From: Roseiflexus sp. | GTDB taxonomy: Bacteria > Chloroflexota > Chloroflexia > Chloroflexales > Roseiflexaceae | Length of the DNA: 54,086 nucleotides | Direction of reading: 5' to 3' | Assembly (NCBI GenBank): GCA_017743475.1 | Contig: JAGHYV010000027.1 | Span: 1-54,086, forward strand | Shown: piece after piece, positions 4,057 to 13,646 of the stretch | Layout: the number at the start of each line of letters is the position of its first letter | How positions within the stretch are numbered: the first letter of the stretch is position 1 | Program-made: the position numbers and the translations under genes | Notes under the pieces: model-generated | What the model saw: only the letters and a program-made list of their open reading frames with translations | Told to the model about the DNA's origin: nothing | The model's database searches: none

Positions 4057-4716
4057 ATGCGAGCGCGAGTCCACTTCGATGAGGATCTGGAAACATTGAC
4101 GGCGGAACTGTACAATCTCGGCGATATGGTCGTCCAGGCGATCCGGGAGTCATTCCAGGCATTGAGCAGGCGTGATATGCAACGCGCACAGCGCGTGATT
4201 GAGCACGATAGGGAGATCAATTAGGTCGAGCGCGACATCGAGGCGCACGCGTTGAGACTGATCGCTACCCAGCAACCGGTTGCCTCCGACATGCGTCGGT
4301 TGATTGTTGCCGTTGAGATCGCTGGCAAGCTTGAGCGCATTGCAGACTATGCCAAAGGGATTGCCCGGATGGCACTGCGCGATACGCCTGCGCCAGAACC
4401 TGCGCTTCCTGCTGAAATGGAACGTATGGCGCGGATGGCAATGGCGATGCTTCAAAAAGCGCTCGATGCCCTCGTTGCCAGGGACAGCGCCACCGCTGAA
4501 ATGCTCGCCGCAGACGACGATGAAGTCGACGATCTGTATGAGCGTGTGGAAACGATGCTCACGCACCAGATGGCGCAGAACCCTCTCACCGTTGCGTGGG
4601 TTTCAGGACTGTTGTTTGTGGCGCACTACCTGGAGCGGGTTGCCGATCGCGCGACGAATATCGGTGAACGGGTAGTGTACCTGGTAAAGGCGCAGGTGGT
4701 GGAGTTGAATCCATGA
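4057..4716 (+). pseudogene. phoU: phoU-like phosphate regulator interrupted by an amber codon
   Basis: Read through one stop, this gives a 219-residue PhoU, a normal length: two three-helix PhoU repeats with the metal-site patterns around ERDIEAHALR and DDDEVDDLYERV. Codon 56 (4222-4224) is TAG in the context DREIN-stop-VERDIEAH. Homologues usually carry a polar residue there, so CAG to TAG is the simplest explanation. The start at 4057 has AAGGTG upstream, and the first 55 codons are clearly PhoU-like (HFDEDLETL). A rescue start exists (TTG at 4252) but would remove the first helix. No pst genes are next to it. PhoU normally restrains the PhoR kinase and the Pst transporter; here it is probably inactive unless the base is a sequence error. 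Confidence 0.85.
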
Positions 4717-4728
4717 TAGAACTGCGGG

Positions 4729-4759
4729 AGGACTGGGAACGGTGCGCCCCGTCCTTTTT
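4729..4759 (+). terminator. Possible rho-independent terminator after phoU
   Basis: AGGAC at 4729-4733 can pair with GTCCT at 4751-4755, extended by GGG/CCC across a mismatch, and five T residues follow. It lies 13 bases after the phoU stop codon. The stem is modest. Confidence 0.45.
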
Positions 4760-4825
4760 GCTGCTCTGAGTCCTGGTTCATCTGAGACAGACGCGCATCT
4801 GTACGCAGCAGAAGACAGGCAGATG

Positions 4826-5135
4826 AACGGGGCAGGTTTTTGTTTTTTTTCAGCTCTCACATGAGGTTGAACCTGATCGGCGAGGTTGAACACTCCCTGA
4901 GTCGAGCCCCCACGCGGCAAATGAAATGATGGTCTTTGAATACATAATTCGCTCTCGCCCGCGCAGGCGGGCTTTGCCCTGGATAGCCGAGGGTTTCAGC
5001 CCCATGGCTCTTGTGGTATAGCGGATTTGATGCTCAATCTCCATAGTTTTGGTCTACACTCCGCTGAAAGCGGGTGCCTCGTGCGACACGACAGATGCGA
5101 ACGATGCTCAATATATCTGAGAAATGCTATCATTG
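4826..5135. repeat. Intergenic repeat mosaic (B fragment, R1, R2, R3)
   Basis: The interval between phoU and cheR holds no gene. GGGGCAGGTTTTTG at 4829-4842 is the end of family B. One R1 unit runs from ATGGTCTTTGAAT near 4930 through GCGCAGGCGGGCTTTGCCC to ATAGCCGAGGG (about 4995). R2 follows (CAGCCCCATGGCT to CTCAATCTCCAT, about 4998-5044), then R3 (GGTCTACACTCCGC to ATATCTGAGAAATGCTAT, about 5051-5131). It shows the module order R1-R2-R3 in its simplest form. Confidence 0.7.
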
Positions 5136-5145
5136 GATCACGGCG

Positions 5146-6551
5146 TCATGAGCGTAACGTCGCCATCCGACGGTGAATAAACATCTGGAGTTCTGCCGCT
5201 GTCACACCGTTCAGTGAGGGAACCGGTGCATCCGGCTGAAGGGTTGCGAGTGAACGGAGCAACCGCCGGTATGCGCGACATGCATCATCGGTGTGACCCG
5301 TGCGCTGCAAGATGCCTGCCATTGCTAGCGATGCGAGGTACAATGTATGATCGAGATAGATGGCGCGTCGGTAGGCAGCGATCGCTTCATCGAAACGCTC
5401 CAGTTGCTCCAGAATCTGTCCAGTAAGCAGATGCGCCTCAGCGCACAGCAGCTCACGCTGGATAATAGTCGCACACAGGCGCAACGCTTCTTCCAGATCA
5501 CCGCGATCAGCTGACTGCCGCGCAGCTTGCAGGTCGTCGAACGCGTGAGCGTCGGCGTCGGCTGCCCTCACTGGCGCCGGTTCGGAAGGTGACAACGCTA
5601 CTGGCAGTGCAGGGAGACCTGACGAAACATCGCTGGAAGAGACATTCAGCAGTGAAACGGGCATGATGCGCGCTGGCGAAAGCGGAGGAACAGCCGTCTC
5701 ATCGAAGAGCAGTGCATTGAGCGGCTTGCGATAGATGACAGTTCCTGGACAGTTGATCACCTCGAAATGGGCAAAAAAGTCGGAACGCGCTTCGGCATGC
5801 CCAACGATTAGCCAGCCGCCAGGGGTGAGCGCCCGATACAGGCGGCGTACAACTGCGCGTATTGTCTCATCGTCGAAATAGATCAGTACATTGCAGCAGA
5901 GAATGACATCCTGCATACTCGTGCCATTCGTCACAGCAGGATACTCGTCCTCGACCAGGTTCAGTCGCGTGAACAGCACCTGACGACGGATCTCCGAACG
6001 AATCCGCCAGCGCGTGCCTTCGATACGTTCAAAGTAACGATCACGCACTGTCGGGTCTGTCTCGCGAAACGACCATGCGCCGTACACCCCTGCACGCGCC
6101 CGTTCCAGGAATCCAGCATTGATATCGGTTGCCAGAATAGTGATCTGCCAGTTGTCGAAATCGGGGAGGGTATCGCGGAGCAGGATCGCCAGTGAGTACG
6201 GTTCTTCTCCTGTGGCGCAACCGGCACTCCAGAAACGCAGTGACCGGATCGCCTCCCGTCGGGCTATCAGGTCGGAATGATCTGATCACGGAGCGCGGCG
6301 AACTGCGAAGCATTACGAAAGAAATAGGTTTCACCGACGGTGACGCTCTCGATAATCGTATGCAGCACGCGCTCGCTGGAAACTGCAGCAGTGTACAGCG
6401 CTTCGAGCGATGCGCAACCGGTGGCAGGCAAAACTGACATCAGGCAGTGGTGGAGATCGTTCTGCCGATGGTCGGGAAAGTAGAGACCGCTGCGAGTTAG
6501 CAGCAGATCACGGAATCGCTGAAAGAGATCGCTCGTAAATGTTGTACTCAT
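5146..6551 (-). pseudogene. cheR: CheR-type chemoreceptor methyltransferase with TPR tail, frameshifted
   Basis: CheR methylates glutamates of chemoreceptors using S-adenosylmethionine. The N-terminal helical part is open from 6551 to a TGA at 6267. The SAM-binding Rossmann part follows in the next frame: SAGCATGEEPYSLAI (motif I), ILATDINAGFLERAR, then CNVLIYFDD and GGWLIVGHAE. A TPR-like C-terminal region (RFDEAIAAYRRAIYLD) makes it a CheR-TPR hybrid of about 468 residues when repaired. One missing base near 6270-6275 (CCGGACC to CCGACC would explain it) breaks the frame. The ATG overlaps the cheB stop as ATGA, so it is the last gene of the chemosensory operon. As written it yields only a 94-residue fragment, plus possibly a GTG-started C-terminal piece from 6087. 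Confidence 0.85.
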
Positions 6552-7588
6552 GCAGTTACAAGCGTCAGTATGTGCGGTGCAATCTCGTTAAGTGCTGCCA
6601 CCTGCACTGCCGCGCCAGCTTCGATAGCGCTGCGCGGCATGCCATAGACAACGCAACTCGCCTCGTCTTGAGCAATGGTAACGGCGCCTCGTTCGCGGAG
6701 TTCTTTGAGACCGCGCGCCCCATCGTCTCCCATACCGGTCAGAATCACACCGATTGCGTGCGCGCCATATGCCTGCGCTACCGAATGGAACAGCAGATCG
6801 GTGGAAGGGCAGTACCGGTCTTCGGCGAGCGCTGGACACAACTCGACAAAGCCGCGCCTGCCTGCCAGCAGGTGAAAGCCGTCTGGCGGCAGGTACAGGC
6901 ATCCAGGCGCCAGACGTTCGCCGTGGGTCGCAACCCGCACCGGCAGCGGTGTCGTTCGCTGAAGCCAGTCCCGGAGCGCTGCCACGAAATCACGCGCAAT
7001 GTGTTGCACCAGCAGCACAGGCAGCGGAAACTGCGCTCCCAGACCGCTGATAACTGTCTGCACCGCCGCTGGTCCGCCAGTCGATGCTGCAATTGCCAGC
7101 ACCTGCGCAGTGCCTGGAGCCAGCGCTCTCTGCACATTCCCTGGTGATGCTGGCAGACGCACGCATGGCGCAAATCGCGTGACGACTCGCACACCAGCCA
7201 TGATCTGCAACGTTTTCAGAAAGGTCTCGTGCTCGTCAGGATCGACGTGACGCCCGCCTGGTTTACGAATAACGGTCAACGCGCCGACTGCCAATGCGTC
7301 GATCAACTTCTTCTCGCCAGCACTGGCGCTGATCAGGACAATCGGCGTCGGGCAGCACTGCATAATCTCGCGCGTCGCCTCGTAGCCATCCATCAGCGGG
7401 AGATGAATGTCCATGGCAATCACATCGGGGCGTAAACGTAACGTCTCCTGCACTGCCTGACGGCCATTTCCCGCCACACCGACCACGGTGAACGAATCGC
7501 TCGCATTGAGCAACCCAACCAGCAATGCACGCTGACCGGGCGAGTCTTCCACTAGCAGCACGCGAATTGGCGACGCTGCTTTGTTCAC
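6548..7588 (-). CDS. cheB: CheB receptor methylesterase
   Basis: A 346-residue two-domain response regulator that removes methyl groups from chemoreceptors. The receiver domain (about 8-125) has acidic residues in LLVEDSPGQ, phosphoacceptor Asp60 (IAMDIHLPLMDG) and Lys109. The esterase domain (about 162-340) has the triad Ser169 (AASTGGP), His196 (VQHIARDF) and Asp289 (GMGDDGARG). The start is GTG at 7588, overlapping the stop of the upstream cheW by GTGA; its own stop overlaps cheR as ATGA, which suggests coupled translation. It is intact, unlike its partner CheR. Confidence 0.93.
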   Translation of the reverse strand: MNKAASPIRVLLVEDSPGQRALLVGLLNASDSFTVVGVAGNGRQAVQETLRLRPDVIAMDIHLPLMDGYEATREIMQCCPTPIVLISASAGEKKLIDALAVGALTVIRKPGGRHVDPDEHETFLKTLQIMAGVRVVTRFAPCVRLPASPGNVQRALAPGTAQVLAIAASTGGPAAVQTVISGLGAQFPLPVLLVQHIARDFVAALRDWLQRTTPLPVRVATHGERLAPGCLYLPPDGFHLLAGRRGFVELCPALAEDRYCPSTDLLFHSVAQAYGAHAIGVILTGMGDDGARGLKELRERGAVTIAQDEASCVVYGMPRSAIEAGAAVQVAALNEIAPHILTLVTA

Positions 7589-8025
7589 AGGACCATCCTT
7601 CGTAGCTCAGCAACGTTGAACACCAGACATGATCGTTGTTCCAGATAAATGATGCCACAAAAGAGAGCGCCTGCATAACTGTTGCGCAACGGATGGATTG
7701 CCGACGACGGATGCTGTGCGAGACCGTACACTTCGTCGACTAGCAGACCCAGCGCTGGTATTGCACGATCCTGATCGTCGCCAATGATGACAATATGGTT
7801 GGTCACGTCGTAGTGCGATGGCTCCCCGACCAACCGCCAGCCATCGATCACCGGCAGATGGCGTCCGTTCAGATTGATCAGTCCGCACACTTCCGGGCGG
7901 CTATCGGGGACGGCAGTCAGCGCTGGCAACCGCACCACACGCAGCGCGTCATTGAGCGGCAACGCATAATCCTGTGCCCCGATACGACAGACCACTAGTG
8001 TCTGCATTGTCATCTGAGTTTCCAT
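7585..8025 (-). CDS. cheW: CheW-like coupling protein (second copy)
   Basis: A 146-residue single CheW domain that would link receptors to the CheA kinase. Visible family features are the GAQDYALPLNDALRVVRLP start, the CGLINLNGRHLPVIDGWRL core and IPALGLLVDEVYGL. It sits 14 bases after the RsbT-like gene and overlaps cheB, so it belongs to the same operon. A second CheW gene opens the operon at 13646. Their divergence suggests separate coupling surfaces rather than a recent duplication (inference). Confidence 0.9.
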   Translation of the reverse strand: METQMTMQTLVVCRIGAQDYALPLNDALRVVRLPALTAVPDSRPEVCGLINLNGRHLPVIDGWRLVGEPSHYDVTNHIVIIGDDQDRAIPALGLLVDEVYGLAQHPSSAIHPLRNSYAGALFCGIIYLEQRSCLVFNVAELRRMVL

Positions 8026-8039
8026 CGTTTGTCATCAGG

Positions 8040-8414
8040 CTACGCGTGAAAACGCAAGGTCAGTTGACCGGCTTCCTGATTCGTCGTCAGTACATTGTCG
8101 CCAACCAGTGCCTGGACATCATGTGCGAGATGCGCCAGCGTATTGGTGTCTCGCCGGATACTGTCGGAAGTGCATTGCACTTCGATCACGCTCCTCCCAC
8201 GATGAAAGGACAGGCGAAACGTGAAATGCGCATTCCAGTGATGTTCGAGCGCCACACGTGCGATTTCGCTGACCACAGCAGTCATGCGCGCCTGCAATGG
8301 AAGGTTGAAACCGGCTTCTCGCGCCATCTGCCGCATATGCTGACGCGCGAGTACCACGTCGTACCCTGAAGCAACACGCACCTGTTGCGTATCCAGAGCC
8401 ATACGGTGTGCCAT
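8040..8414 (-). CDS. RsbT/anti-sigma type ATPase-fold protein, degenerate
   Basis: A 124-residue protein resembling RsbT and other small GHKL anti-sigma regulators: VRVASGYDVVLARQHMRQMAREAGF, then TAVVSEIARVALEHH at the N-box helix. The usual Asn of the N-box (SEIARN) is Val, and no DxGxG loop is visible where ATP is normally bound (the corresponding stretch reads CTSDSIRRDTN). It may therefore keep the fold without kinase activity. The frame is open upstream to 8612, but the ATG at 8414 follows GAGGTTTCAT and lies 8 bases after the receiver gene. Its place between a receiver and CheW suggests an output or partner-binding role in this chemosensory system (inference). Confidence 0.7.
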   Translation of the reverse strand: MAHRMALDTQQVRVASGYDVVLARQHMRQMAREAGFNLPLQARMTAVVSEIARVALEHHWNAHFTFRLSFHRGRSVIEVQCTSDSIRRDTNTLAHLAHDVQALVGDNVLTTNQEAGQLTLRFHA

Positions 8415-8422
8415 ATGAAACC

Positions 8423-8803
8423 TCACGTCTGCGTCAACACGCCAAGAGCGCGCAGCGACTCGATAAGATTCTGCTCGGCAAACTCGTCTTTGGGGATGTA
8501 ATCGTCGGCACCAGCTTCCAGCCCAGTCTGCGCACTGCGTGCATCTTCTCGATGTGTGAGCATAATGATTGGCACGGCAGACGTTGCCGGTTCCTGCTTC
8601 AGGCGCTGGCAAAGGGTATATCCATCGATGCCTGGCAGATCAACGTCGAGTACAATCGCTTTGGGACGCAGCGCACGCGCGCACTCCCACCCTTGGATGC
8701 CATCGCAGGCAATATCGACGCGCGCGCCGCAGCGCTGGAGTTCGAGCTGAAAGCGCAACGCCTGCGTCCGGCTATCTTCGACGATCAAGATATGTGGCGT
8801 CAT
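8423..8803 (-). CDS. Single-domain response regulator (CheY/PilH-like)
   Basis: A 126-residue stand-alone receiver with acidic pocket IVEDSRTQ, phosphoacceptor Asp53 (VLDVDLPGIDG), the Thr in IIMLTHRE and the conserved Lys in YIPKDEF. The IVEDS..Q and DGYTLCQRLKQ patterns resemble regulators of Wsp/Pil-Chp-type systems more than flagellar CheY. It starts 10 bases after the CheA-hybrid stop. The probable phosphodonor is the adjacent CheA. It has no output domain, so it must act by protein contact or as a phosphate sink. Confidence 0.9.
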   Translation of the reverse strand: MTPHILIVEDSRTQALRFQLELQRCGARVDIACDGIQGWECARALRPKAIVLDVDLPGIDGYTLCQRLKQEPATSAVPIIMLTHREDARSAQTGLEAGADDYIPKDEFAEQNLIESLRALGVLTQT

Positions 8804-8813
8804 TGCTTTACCC

Positions 8814-11161
8814 TTATATCAGACGAGCGATGGTATCCAGCAATGTTTGTTGATCGAATGCACGTTTGACGATATACGCATCCGCACCGACGGTCACCCC
8901 GCGTTCGCGGTGTTCTGGAGCATCAAGCGATGTTACCAGCACGATCGGCAGGTGTTTAAAACGCTCACTGGCGCGCAGTTTCTCGGTCAACTCAAAGCCA
9001 TTCAGACGCGGCATGTCGATATCGCTAATCACAAGATCGCATCCGCCATTCGTGGATAGACGCTGCAAAACTTCCAGCGCTTCGATGCCATCGGTGGCCA
9101 GATGCACCTGGTAGCCGGCTGTTTCGAGAATGTTCTTCTCCAGCATCCGTGTTGTCAGCGAGTCGTCTACAACCAGAATCTGCGGTATGCGCCGCTGTTG
9201 ATTGACATCAGGCATCACAGGCGCTGGCAGACGCTGCGCCCCCGATGCCGCCCGTACAATATCAACTGTATCCAGAATTGGCGCAATTGCACCATCGGGC
9301 AGGATGGCAGCAGCAGCAATAAACTGCACCCGTCTGATAGGAAACGGTAGTCGATGCACGACCAGTTCTTGCTCGCTTACGACACCATCAACCAGGCACG
9401 CTACCAGGCGTTCTCCACTGCTCCCCAATAACAGCGCCGCACAGCGCTCCTCGCCGCGTGAGAATGATCCCATCCCATTACCGGCTTCCACCAGATCCGC
9501 CAGATGCACCAGCACGACCGGACGACCGTCCACCAGAATGACTGTCCTGCCTTCAAGCACACGTACATCACTGGGTTGAACCGCCACAATTGGATCGACT
9601 CCAGCGGCACGGCGCAGATGTGTTGCCCGAGTTTCACCAGCAAGCCGTGAGTGCTGGTCAGTGAAACTGGAACGCTCAGCACGAAGCGACATCCTGCACC
9701 TGGCGTGCTGTGCACCTGAATCCGGCCCCGCATTCGCTCAATATGCGAATGGACGATATCGAGACCAACCCCGCGCCCCGACAGATGGCTGGCTGTCGTG
9801 CGCGTCGAAAAGCCTGGCAGGAAAATAAGATTGGCTGCGTCGGTCGGTGTGAGACGCTCCAGATCGGTCGCCGTTAGCAATCCCAGTTCAAGCGCCCGAC
9901 GTCGAATAGCCTCATCGTCCAGCCCGGCGCCATTGTCGGCAATCTCAATTGTCAACCAGTCGCCGTCAACGGCTGCATTCAGGCGAATCGCCCCCTGCTC
10001 CGGTTTACCACGATGCCGACGCACTGTTGCTTCTTCGATACCGTGATCAATGGCGTTGCGTAGGAGATGAGTGAGCACTTCACGCAGCGTGTCGAGCACC
10101 TGACGATCAGCTTCAGCACCCCCATCGTCGAAGAACAGATCGACCGGTTTGCCAGCGCTGCGACTGACATCGCGCGCAACCAGACGCAGCGACTGGAAGA
10201 TAGTCCGCAGCGGCAGCATGCGAGTGCGTCGGATCTGGAGATGCAGACGGTCGGTGACCGTACTCAACGTTGATTGATCGGCGGCAAGATCACGTGCACA
10301 TGCCGTCAATTGTTGATCAATCTCATCGATCAGCGCTGCTGCCCGGTTCAATGCGCCTGCCAGTTGCTGAAGATCACGCTGCTGAAGCTCGTTGCTATAG
10401 CGCTCATGGGTAATTGGACGGATGTCAAGATGATGCACCACCGGGTGGAAGGCATCGCTGTGAGCCTGATATCGCGCAACAACCGGGCGCACCTGACGCC
10501 ACAGGCGTTTCCAGGGCGCTAACATGCGTCTGAGATCCTGGATCCGGCGCGCCTGAGCGCGTATTCGCATCACCCCGGTCATCAGTTCGCCGACATCGTT
10601 GAGCAGGGTATCCAGTACCTCGATCGCACGGCGAACTGTGGTCACCTCCCCAATACCGGTCGGCGCTACAGGAAGACCGGCAGAAACGACCGGCGTTTCA
10701 TCACCGGAGATTGTGGCGTCTTCTGTTTGTTCCGCCAACTCCTGATCCGACGGCGGTTGCGCAAGAAAGGCGCGCAACTGGTGAACAGTCGTCTCGATAA
10801 GGGCGTTGTCTGGCGGGTGATGGGCAATTGCCCGATCCACTAAAACGCCGATCACGTCCAGCGCAGCGTACACCGGATCGCACAACGCTGGCGTCACGCG
10901 CAGGCGACGCTCTCGCAGCGCGGCAAACAGATCCTCGATGGCATGCGCAATTTGCTCAATACCCGGCAAACCAGCCGCGCGGGCGCTGCCTTTCAGGCTG
11001 TGCGCAGCGCGGAAAAGCTGGTCAACGAGTGCGCGGTCATCGGGATGATCGGGATGCTGCTCCATTTCAAGCAACAATGACGCGATTGCAGCGCGATGCT
11101 CCGCCTGCTCTTCGCAAAAAGCGGCAAAGACCTGCGTCATAATGTCATTATCGTTCTCCAT
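8814..11161 (-). pseudogene. cheA: CheA histidine kinase with C-terminal receiver, frameshifted in the P5 domain
   Basis: Repaired, this is a hybrid CheA of about 783 residues. HPt domain: His54 in AAHSLKGSARAAG. Dimer/ATPase region: LLRNAIDHGIE, IEIADNGAGLD, GRGVGLDIVHSHIE. CheW-like P5 domain: VSLTSTHGLLV onwards. Terminal receiver: ILVVDDSLTT, SDIDMPRLNG, Lys in YIVKRAF. The first frame is open from 11161 but leaves register at about 9588-9596 (AVPLESIQ, then out-of-frame residues to a stop at 9401). The continuation IVAVQPSDVRVLEGR lies in another frame, open down to 8814. Spacing against the family suggests a loss of about 4 bases. As written, the receiver and most of P5 are cut off, so coupling to receptors should fail. 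Confidence 0.87.
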
Positions 11162-11178
11162 ACCGCCGCACCTGCCTG

Positions 11179-13005
11179 CTATAGTCGATACCTGGCAATC
11201 GTCGCCTGCAACGACTGAGCAAGCGTGTGCAGGTCTTGCGCTGCGCGTTCTGCCTGGCGCGTACTGGCAAGTGCCTGGGTTGTCGCCTGCTGGATGGATG
11301 TCATCGCCTGAGCGATCTGATCCATGCCTGCGGTTTGTTGCTGGGCGGCAGCTGCCATTTGTACATTTGCCTGCGCTCCGCTCTCAACCTCTTTCGACAT
11401 TTGTATGGATCACCTGACCGGCGCGGATCGCCAGACTCACCCCTGCTCAACACCTTTCGTTCCTTCTTCCGTCACCATAACGGCGGCGTTGGTCGCGCGC
11501 TGAATTTCGCTCAGGATCTCACGTACCTGGACTGTTGCGGCTTTCGAGCGTTCCGCCAGATCGCGCACGTGCTGCGCCACGACGGCAAAACTCCTGCCCT
11601 GCTCACCGGCGCGTGCTGCCTCAATAGCCGCGTTCAGCGCCAGCATATTCGACTGGTCGGCCAGTTCGGCAATGGTGGTGGTAATGGCGCCAATCGCCTG
11701 CGTTTGCTCTGCCAGCGAAAGGATCGTCTGGGCAATACTCTCGACTCGCTCGCGGATCTGTCCCATACCGTTAATTGTGTCTTCGACCGCTTGTGCACCC
11801 TGACGCGCCACCTGGAGCGCCGTCTGGCTATCCTGTGCTACTTGCGCCGCCTGGCGCGCTGTCTGAAGCACAATCGCCTTTACCTCCTCGATGGTCGTCA
11901 ATGTCTGGGTAATCGCAGCGGATTGTTCGGTCGCAGATGCTGCCTGTTGCGTTGTGGCGGCAAGAATTTCGGCGGCAGCAGAGGCGATAGCTGCATTGGC
12001 CTGCTGAATCTGGAGCGTCATGGTGTGCAGACTGGCGACCATGGCATTCAAGCCTTTGCCAAGTTGCCCAAGCGCCCCGTTCTGGTGCACTTCCAGGCGC
12101 CGGGAGAGATCGCCCTCAGCAATGCGCTGGGTGAACGCCAGATATTCGGCGACCGTTTCTTCCAGCATCCGGCGGCTCTCGGCTTCCGCCTGACGCAATC
12201 GCTCCTCGGCTTCGCGCGCCTCCGCCTCTGCAGCACGACTGGCGCGCAGGCTGGCGACCATCTGGTTGTAGGCAGCGGCGAGTGTCCCGATCTCATCGTT
12301 CGATGACGCCTGAACTTCACGCGACAGATCGCCCCGCGCTACTGCGTTCGTCGCTTCGGTCAGACGCCCGATGTTCCGCGTAATCATCGATGCTAGAGCA
12401 ATGCTGACTACTGCAGAAGCAACCAGTGCCACAATCAGCAGGCTGGTGATCGTCATGGTTGCACTGCGGTACGCTTCCTGCGCTGCACCTGTGGCTTCGA
12501 GCGCCTGGCGGTTGTTTTCCCGCTCAAGTGCGGTAGTATCCTGGTTCAACTGATCGAATAGCGGTTTCAGCCCGATGAAGACGGACAATGCGGATTGCGG
12601 ATCATCGGTCTCAAAGATCTTTGTTCCAACCTCCTCGGTATATGCGCTCCAGTTTTTGCGAATGCGCGTGTACAGTTCACGTTCAATATCCGTTACGATA
12701 AATGTTTCATACTTCTGCAACAGGGCGTCCATTTCGGTCTCAAGTTCACGCCGCTCGCTATTGGTGCGGGACACCTGTTCGGGACGTGGATCTGCAATAC
12801 GCACCGCTGCCAGACTGCGGTGCCGGTTGACAATGCGCCGCATATCGCTGCTGGTGCGTGTCGCTGGCACGATGTTCTCGCTCAGGTGTTGAGCGCGATC
12901 ATTCATTAGTTCCATCTGATAGAGCGCAATCACGCCCAGGGCAATCATGAGCGCCGGTGTAAGTCCAGAAGCGCCGAGGAGTTTGAAGTAGATCGAGAGT
13001 TTCAT
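11179..13005 (-). pseudogene. Methyl-accepting chemotaxis protein with a short out-of-register patch
   Basis: A chemoreceptor of about 608 residues: N-terminal membrane helix, periplasmic four-helix sensor (about 35-185), second membrane helix ([20 protein letters not shown]), HAMP, then a long coiled-coil signalling domain ([44 protein letters not shown]). Its tip matches family 1 receptors. At 11401-11439 the frame contains TGA twice; the correct residues [14 protein letters not shown] can be read in a neighbouring frame, and the original frame resumes at 11400 (MSKEVESGAQANVQM). This fits a one-base loss followed by a compensating one-base gain. The start at 13005 has AAGGA upstream. Translation as written would stop in the second signalling helix. 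Confidence 0.85.
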
Positions 13006-13097
13006 ACCATCCTTGCTCAGCAGATATGAAGATAGCAGCATACCGTCGTGCCATGCACAACGGTTTCTGGACAGGAGGAAGGCGCCGGGCGGCAATC

Positions 13098-13646
13098 TCA
13101 GGCGACCGCCTGATGGTCGACGATCAGACGCGGATCGGCAAGCAGTGCAACTGGGTCGATCACGATGGACAGATCGCGGTCCACGCCGCGGATCCACGAG
13201 ATGGCAGCGTTTGCTGTCGTGACAGGTGCAGGACTGAGTTCAAGCGCATCTGAAGTCATATCCAGAATGCTATCCGCCAGCAGCACCGCATCGCCGCCGG
13301 TTCCCTGGAGTACGATCAGGAACGAGCCGGGAGCGGGCGGATCGACTGGCAGATCGAGCAGTGGACGCAGATCGAGACAGGTCAGCAAACGCCCGTGGAT
13401 GTTGACCAGCCCGACGATGAACGGCGGTGCGCGGAACAACGGCGTGTATGCGCGTAGCGGTTGCACCTCGCGTGCATAACGCGCCGGAAGCGCATATTGT
13501 CCGTCACCAAGACGGAAACGGATCATCACCTCGCCGCCGATTGCCGTGTCGATGACATCGTGCGCTGCGAGTGCACGTGCGCGCGCTTCGAGGATAGCGC
13601 GCAGTTCGGGTTGCGACTGAAATGTTCGCAGATCGTTGGTGTTCAT
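13098..13646 (-). CDS. cheW: CheW-like coupling protein (first copy)
   Basis: A 182-residue CheW-domain protein with an N-terminal extension of about 40 residues ([17 protein letters not shown]). The CheW fold is seen as [23 protein letters not shown], then [21 protein letters not shown] and [12 protein letters not shown]. It is the first gene of the chemosensory operon; mcp starts 92 bases after its stop. The 135 bases upstream, up to pth, should hold the operon promoter. A weak candidate on the minus strand is TTGTGA, 17 bases, TATCAA. Confidence 0.88.

Follow-up and report, generated by a model that had tools for sequence, protein, structure and literature searches.

Members of the Chloroflexales are known for gliding, Tad-type pili and receptor-array-like structures (PMC7332563), so that a role in taxis is plausible for their chemosensory genes. 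In the five other Roseiflexus genomes that we used for comparison (G001-G005), the che operon has the same gene set and order as the operon studied here, and in most of them phoU and pth lie close to it. The ancestral operon, like that of the relatives, would have encoded a methyl-accepting chemotaxis protein (MCP), CheW adaptors, a CheA-receiver hybrid, a receiver, CheB and a CheR with TPR; judged from these domains, its role was probably receptor-controlled kinase output with methylation-based adaptation. We examined this operon in a stretch of 54,086 nucleotides (the window), which is contig C171 of a hot-spring Roseiflexus genome (4.97 Mb, 206 contigs). The closest of the genomes compared is G002 (5,801,598 bp in one contig), whose DNA is 90.9% identical, and a wider contig scan with CheB as query returned, as nearest named relatives, Roseiflexus metagenome-assembled genomes that are all more distant.

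In the window, genes for an MCP, CheW and CheA stand together with cheR and cheB. Pfam searches place MCPsignal, CheW (twice), Hpt with HATPase, receiver, CheB and CheR matches in a single run of genes on the minus strand (13646 to 5146), in the order cheW1, MCP, cheA-receiver, receiver, small ORF, cheW2, cheB and cheR-TPR (Table 1). The small ORF, found in all six Roseiflexus genomes, has a weak match to part of RsbA-type anti-sigma factors (NCBIfam RsbA, sub-threshold, E 0.002). Between phoU and cheR lies a gap of 426 bases (4718-5143) where G002 has about 9 bases; positions ~190-417 of this stretch belong to a dispersed repeat, for which the genome gives 78 matches.

Table 1. Features of the che operon in the window and the adjoining phoU gene.
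Feature	Coordinates	Strand	Properties
cheW1	13098..13646	-	182 aa, intact; PF01584; 96% aa identity to G002, full length, single frame
MCP	11179..13005	-	broken; 4HB_MCP, HAMP, MCPsignal (Pfam)
cheA hybrid kinase	8814..11161	-	Hpt, HATPase, CheW-like P5, receiver (Pfam); broken by 4-base loss
stand-alone receiver	8423..8803	-	126 aa, intact; PF00072; 98% aa identity, dN/dS 0.03
small ORF	8040..8426	-	128 aa, intact; conserved across genus
cheW2	7585..8025	-	146 aa, intact; PF01584
cheB	6548..7588	-	346 aa, intact; receiver + methylesterase (PF00072 + PF01339)
cheR with C-terminal TPR	5146..6551	-	broken by one-base loss ~6273
phoU	4057..4716	+	beside operon; in-frame CAG->TAG at 4222; open in relatives

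Alignment of the whole operon with its syntenic counterpart in G002 (8867 bases, 90.9% identity) revealed four frame-breaking indels, spread over cheR, cheA and the MCP gene (two); the other gaps are intergenic, 5' of the MCP start or at the extreme end of cheA. In cheR, CCC in G002 is reduced to two C at ~6273-6275, with a CheR_N match (below the cut-off) upstream and the CheR methyltransferase and TPR matches downstream in a different frame. In cheA, four bases are missing at ~9590 (site 9586..9596, minus strand), at codon ~524 and the start of the CheW-like domain, so that residues 1-524 and ~525-783 of the G002 protein fall in different frames, with Pfam matches on both halves. The MCP gene has lost one base at ~11440 and gained one at ~11404, leaving an out-of-register patch of 36 bases (11404..11440, minus strand) with two TGA codons inside the MCPsignal match, both flagged independently by the PF00015 search; the same region is intact in G001-G005. 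A preliminary description of this DNA had placed a one-base loss near 6270, a loss of the CheA frame at 9588-9596 and a 39-base MCP patch with two stops at 11401-11439; the first two agree with our alignment, as do the patch and its stops, while its size is 36 bases. Its statement that five other operon genes are intact also held, as cheW1, the receiver, the small ORF, cheW2 and cheB are each open in one frame end to end with their G002 orthologues.

The same description had proposed a comparison with close strains; the five other Roseiflexus genomes gave a uniform answer. Every orthologue present in G001-G005 (the G005 contig stops before cheW2) reads as a single frame without stops, so the lesions are derived on the window lineage. 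Thus cheR, cheA and the MCP gene, which are open in the orthologous operons of the relatives, carry in the window frame-breaking lesions missing from those orthologues, and conserved Pfam domains flank the breaks on both sides. We consider it probable that these lesions reflect recent, lineage-specific decay of one of two chemosensory operons in this Roseiflexus, a redundant one.

The genome has three MCP genes, one in the window operon, one on contig C150 and an orphan on contig C26 (G000:C26:32245-34498; L245:2746-4998). The orphan has no frameshift and three in-frame TAG codons, each a CAG to TAG change derived on the window lineage; its orthologues are open in G002 (766 codons), G003 and G004. 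Despite three stops it has no excess of amino-acid changes (16 N, 57 S; N/S 0.28 versus 0.71). Thus two of the three receptors are broken; they lie on different contigs and differ in the kind of lesion, and the C26 receptor may once have been part of the broken system. As for phoU, two other copies in the genome are open.

Since every extra stop in phoU and in the C26 MCP is a CAG to TAG change and the window MCP regains its frame after 36 bases, we considered whether recoding, by programmed frameshifting in cheR and cheA or by stop readthrough, lets the cell retain the products. We regard this as extremely improbable: the sites are not conserved, all relatives having plain open frames there, and the MCP patch holds two TGA codons. 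Of ~106 genes aligned, 23 end in TAG, which hardly occurs within the others, and among 44 tRNA genes there is no stop-reading anticodon. Programmed frameshifting was rejected because the sites lack conservation in G001-G005, and amber suppression or a reading of TAG as Gln, raised by the four CAG to TAG changes, because no CTA anticodon occurs among the 44 tRNAs and TAG is still a stop. In the MCPs, about half of all opportunities for a nonsense change are of the CAG to TAG type.

The preliminary description had left the choice between early decay and sequence error, and we estimated the background rate of broken genes by aligning G002 genes to sampled contigs and keeping those with dN/dS below 0.35 in the G002 frame (108 genes, 138 kb). 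Automatic counts over-called, because in G002 some starts were over-extended and some antisense ORFs spurious, and the background was then counted with the dN/dS filter and by hand, so that it rests partly on judgement; compensated indel pairs a few bases apart were left out. Outside the operon, 3 of ~102 validated genes (~130 kb) are broken: phoU, a SWIM-type gene with two frameshifts and two stops on contig C2, and a winged-helix-type gene with two stops and one frameshift on contig C55, the types of the last two judged by eye. Several lesions including nonsense, as in the C2 and C55 genes, is the pattern of true pseudogenes. The remaining flagged events, placed within the first 25% of the G002 ORF or beside neighbouring genes, fit over-extended starts. 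At L177:8081-9922 and L186:14622-15837, two genes of this genome each differ from G002 by several lesions and are apparent pseudogenes. No lone internal frame-breaking indel was found in the ~100 other validated genes sampled (~130 kb); a genome-wide error-prone sequence, which would scatter lone indels across unrelated genes, was rejected on that account. Broken genes are enriched in the operon (3 of 8 versus 3 of 102; Fisher p = 0.005; p = 0.015 when the count is restricted to the final 70% of each gene), and with the background rate set at its upper bound the p value for four indels there is ~ 7e-5. Random sequence error thus fits poorly.

A local assembly or consensus error, in which a low-coverage or strain-mixed stretch acquired four false indels and the operon is really intact, is the more serious alternative. 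The genome is fragmented into 206 contigs, each of the four operon lesions is a small indel, the two in the MCP gene are only 36 bases apart, and dN/dS is not clearly relaxed. Against this, the lone-indel background is near zero in ~130 kb, and the -4 and +1 changes are not homopolymer slips. Substitution divergence is flat along the operon (~9% throughout), giving no sign of a poor-quality patch, and nonsense substitutions are what breaks phoU and, on a different contig, the C26 MCP. We therefore keep local error as a rival, possible but on balance doubtful, and favour decay, because the lesions are clustered against a low background, an unlinked chemoreceptor carries three nonsense changes and the lesions are derived.

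Relative to G002, dN/dS is 0.14 for cheR, 0.12 for cheA and 0.08 for the MCP, with neighbours at 0.06-0.24 (two values above 1 were left out, being in the wrong frame). As the broken genes are as low as their neighbours, the loss, if real, would be recent. When changes were polarised with the other four genomes, N/S in the broken genes was 0.57 on the window branch versus 0.32 on the G002 branch (nominal p 0.03), and on the window branch it exceeded that of the intact che genes (0.57 versus 0.33, nominal p 0.049), a weak signal of relaxed selection. The intact che genes (N/S 0.33 on the window branch, 0.45 on the G002 branch) give no such signal, and the dN/dS of the open genes, a measure the preliminary description had suggested, is low (for the receiver, see Table 1).

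This constraint on the intact genes would also suit a reading in which the truncated products still function, for example a split CheA with separate kinase-core and CheW-receiver parts, and in which the second CheA works with the CheW, CheB and receiver that survive; an ATG-started ORF of 292 aa does span the CheW-receiver half of CheA. We hold this to be very improbable, as CheA is cut inside its CheW-like domain and not between domains, the break in CheR falls between the N-terminal domain and the SAM-binding one, and the pattern fits genes merely not hit so far. There is slightly more, though still little, to be said for the idea that the CheW, CheB, receiver and small ORF, having lost their own kinase and receptor, were taken over by the second che system and that selection keeps them for this reason.

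That second system lies on contig C150, where all genes of a che operon are open: cheB (382 aa), a receiver, cheA (747 aa), an MCP gene (505 aa), two cheW and cheR (517 codons). It shares with the window operon the cheA-receiver hybrid, cheB, cheR, two cheW, a receiver and an MCP, and is only distantly related to it, the two CheA proteins being 30% identical. Since this operon is whole, neither a kinase nor a methyltransferase is missing from the cell, and the proposal that it has adaptors and a methylesterase without either enzyme applies to the window operon only. The genome also has open genes for T2SE-type ATPases, the family to which pilus motors belong.

Under decay, CheR would stop after codon ~93, CheA would be cut within the CheW-like coupling domain, so that a kinase core devoid of coupling and receiver domains is left, and the MCP would end ~65 residues early; with these truncations the link from receptor to kinase would be lost. 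The short intact genes would simply not have been hit yet, the unlinked C26 receptor would be dead too, and the C150 operon presumably carries on taxis, making redundancy the likely cause of the loss. Counting against decay, all four operon lesions are indels and none is a nonsense substitution, two indels 36 bases apart are unlikely as independent events in the 1.8-kb MCP gene, and the signal of relaxed selection is weak, and absent in the C26 MCP.

Our literature search found no description of such a loss. If real, it would show at an early stage how a gliding phototroph with two chemosensory systems loses one of them, when kinase, methyltransferase and two of the three receptors have been hit and the small genes are still open. 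It would also allow a natural comparison of what is under the control of each che system in Roseiflexus. The loss itself would be ordinary and points to no new kind of system. Set against ordinary pseudogenes, the window operon shows nothing outside known behaviour: bacterial pseudogenes of redundant systems carry small indels and nonsense changes and, when recent, have low dN/dS, as here.
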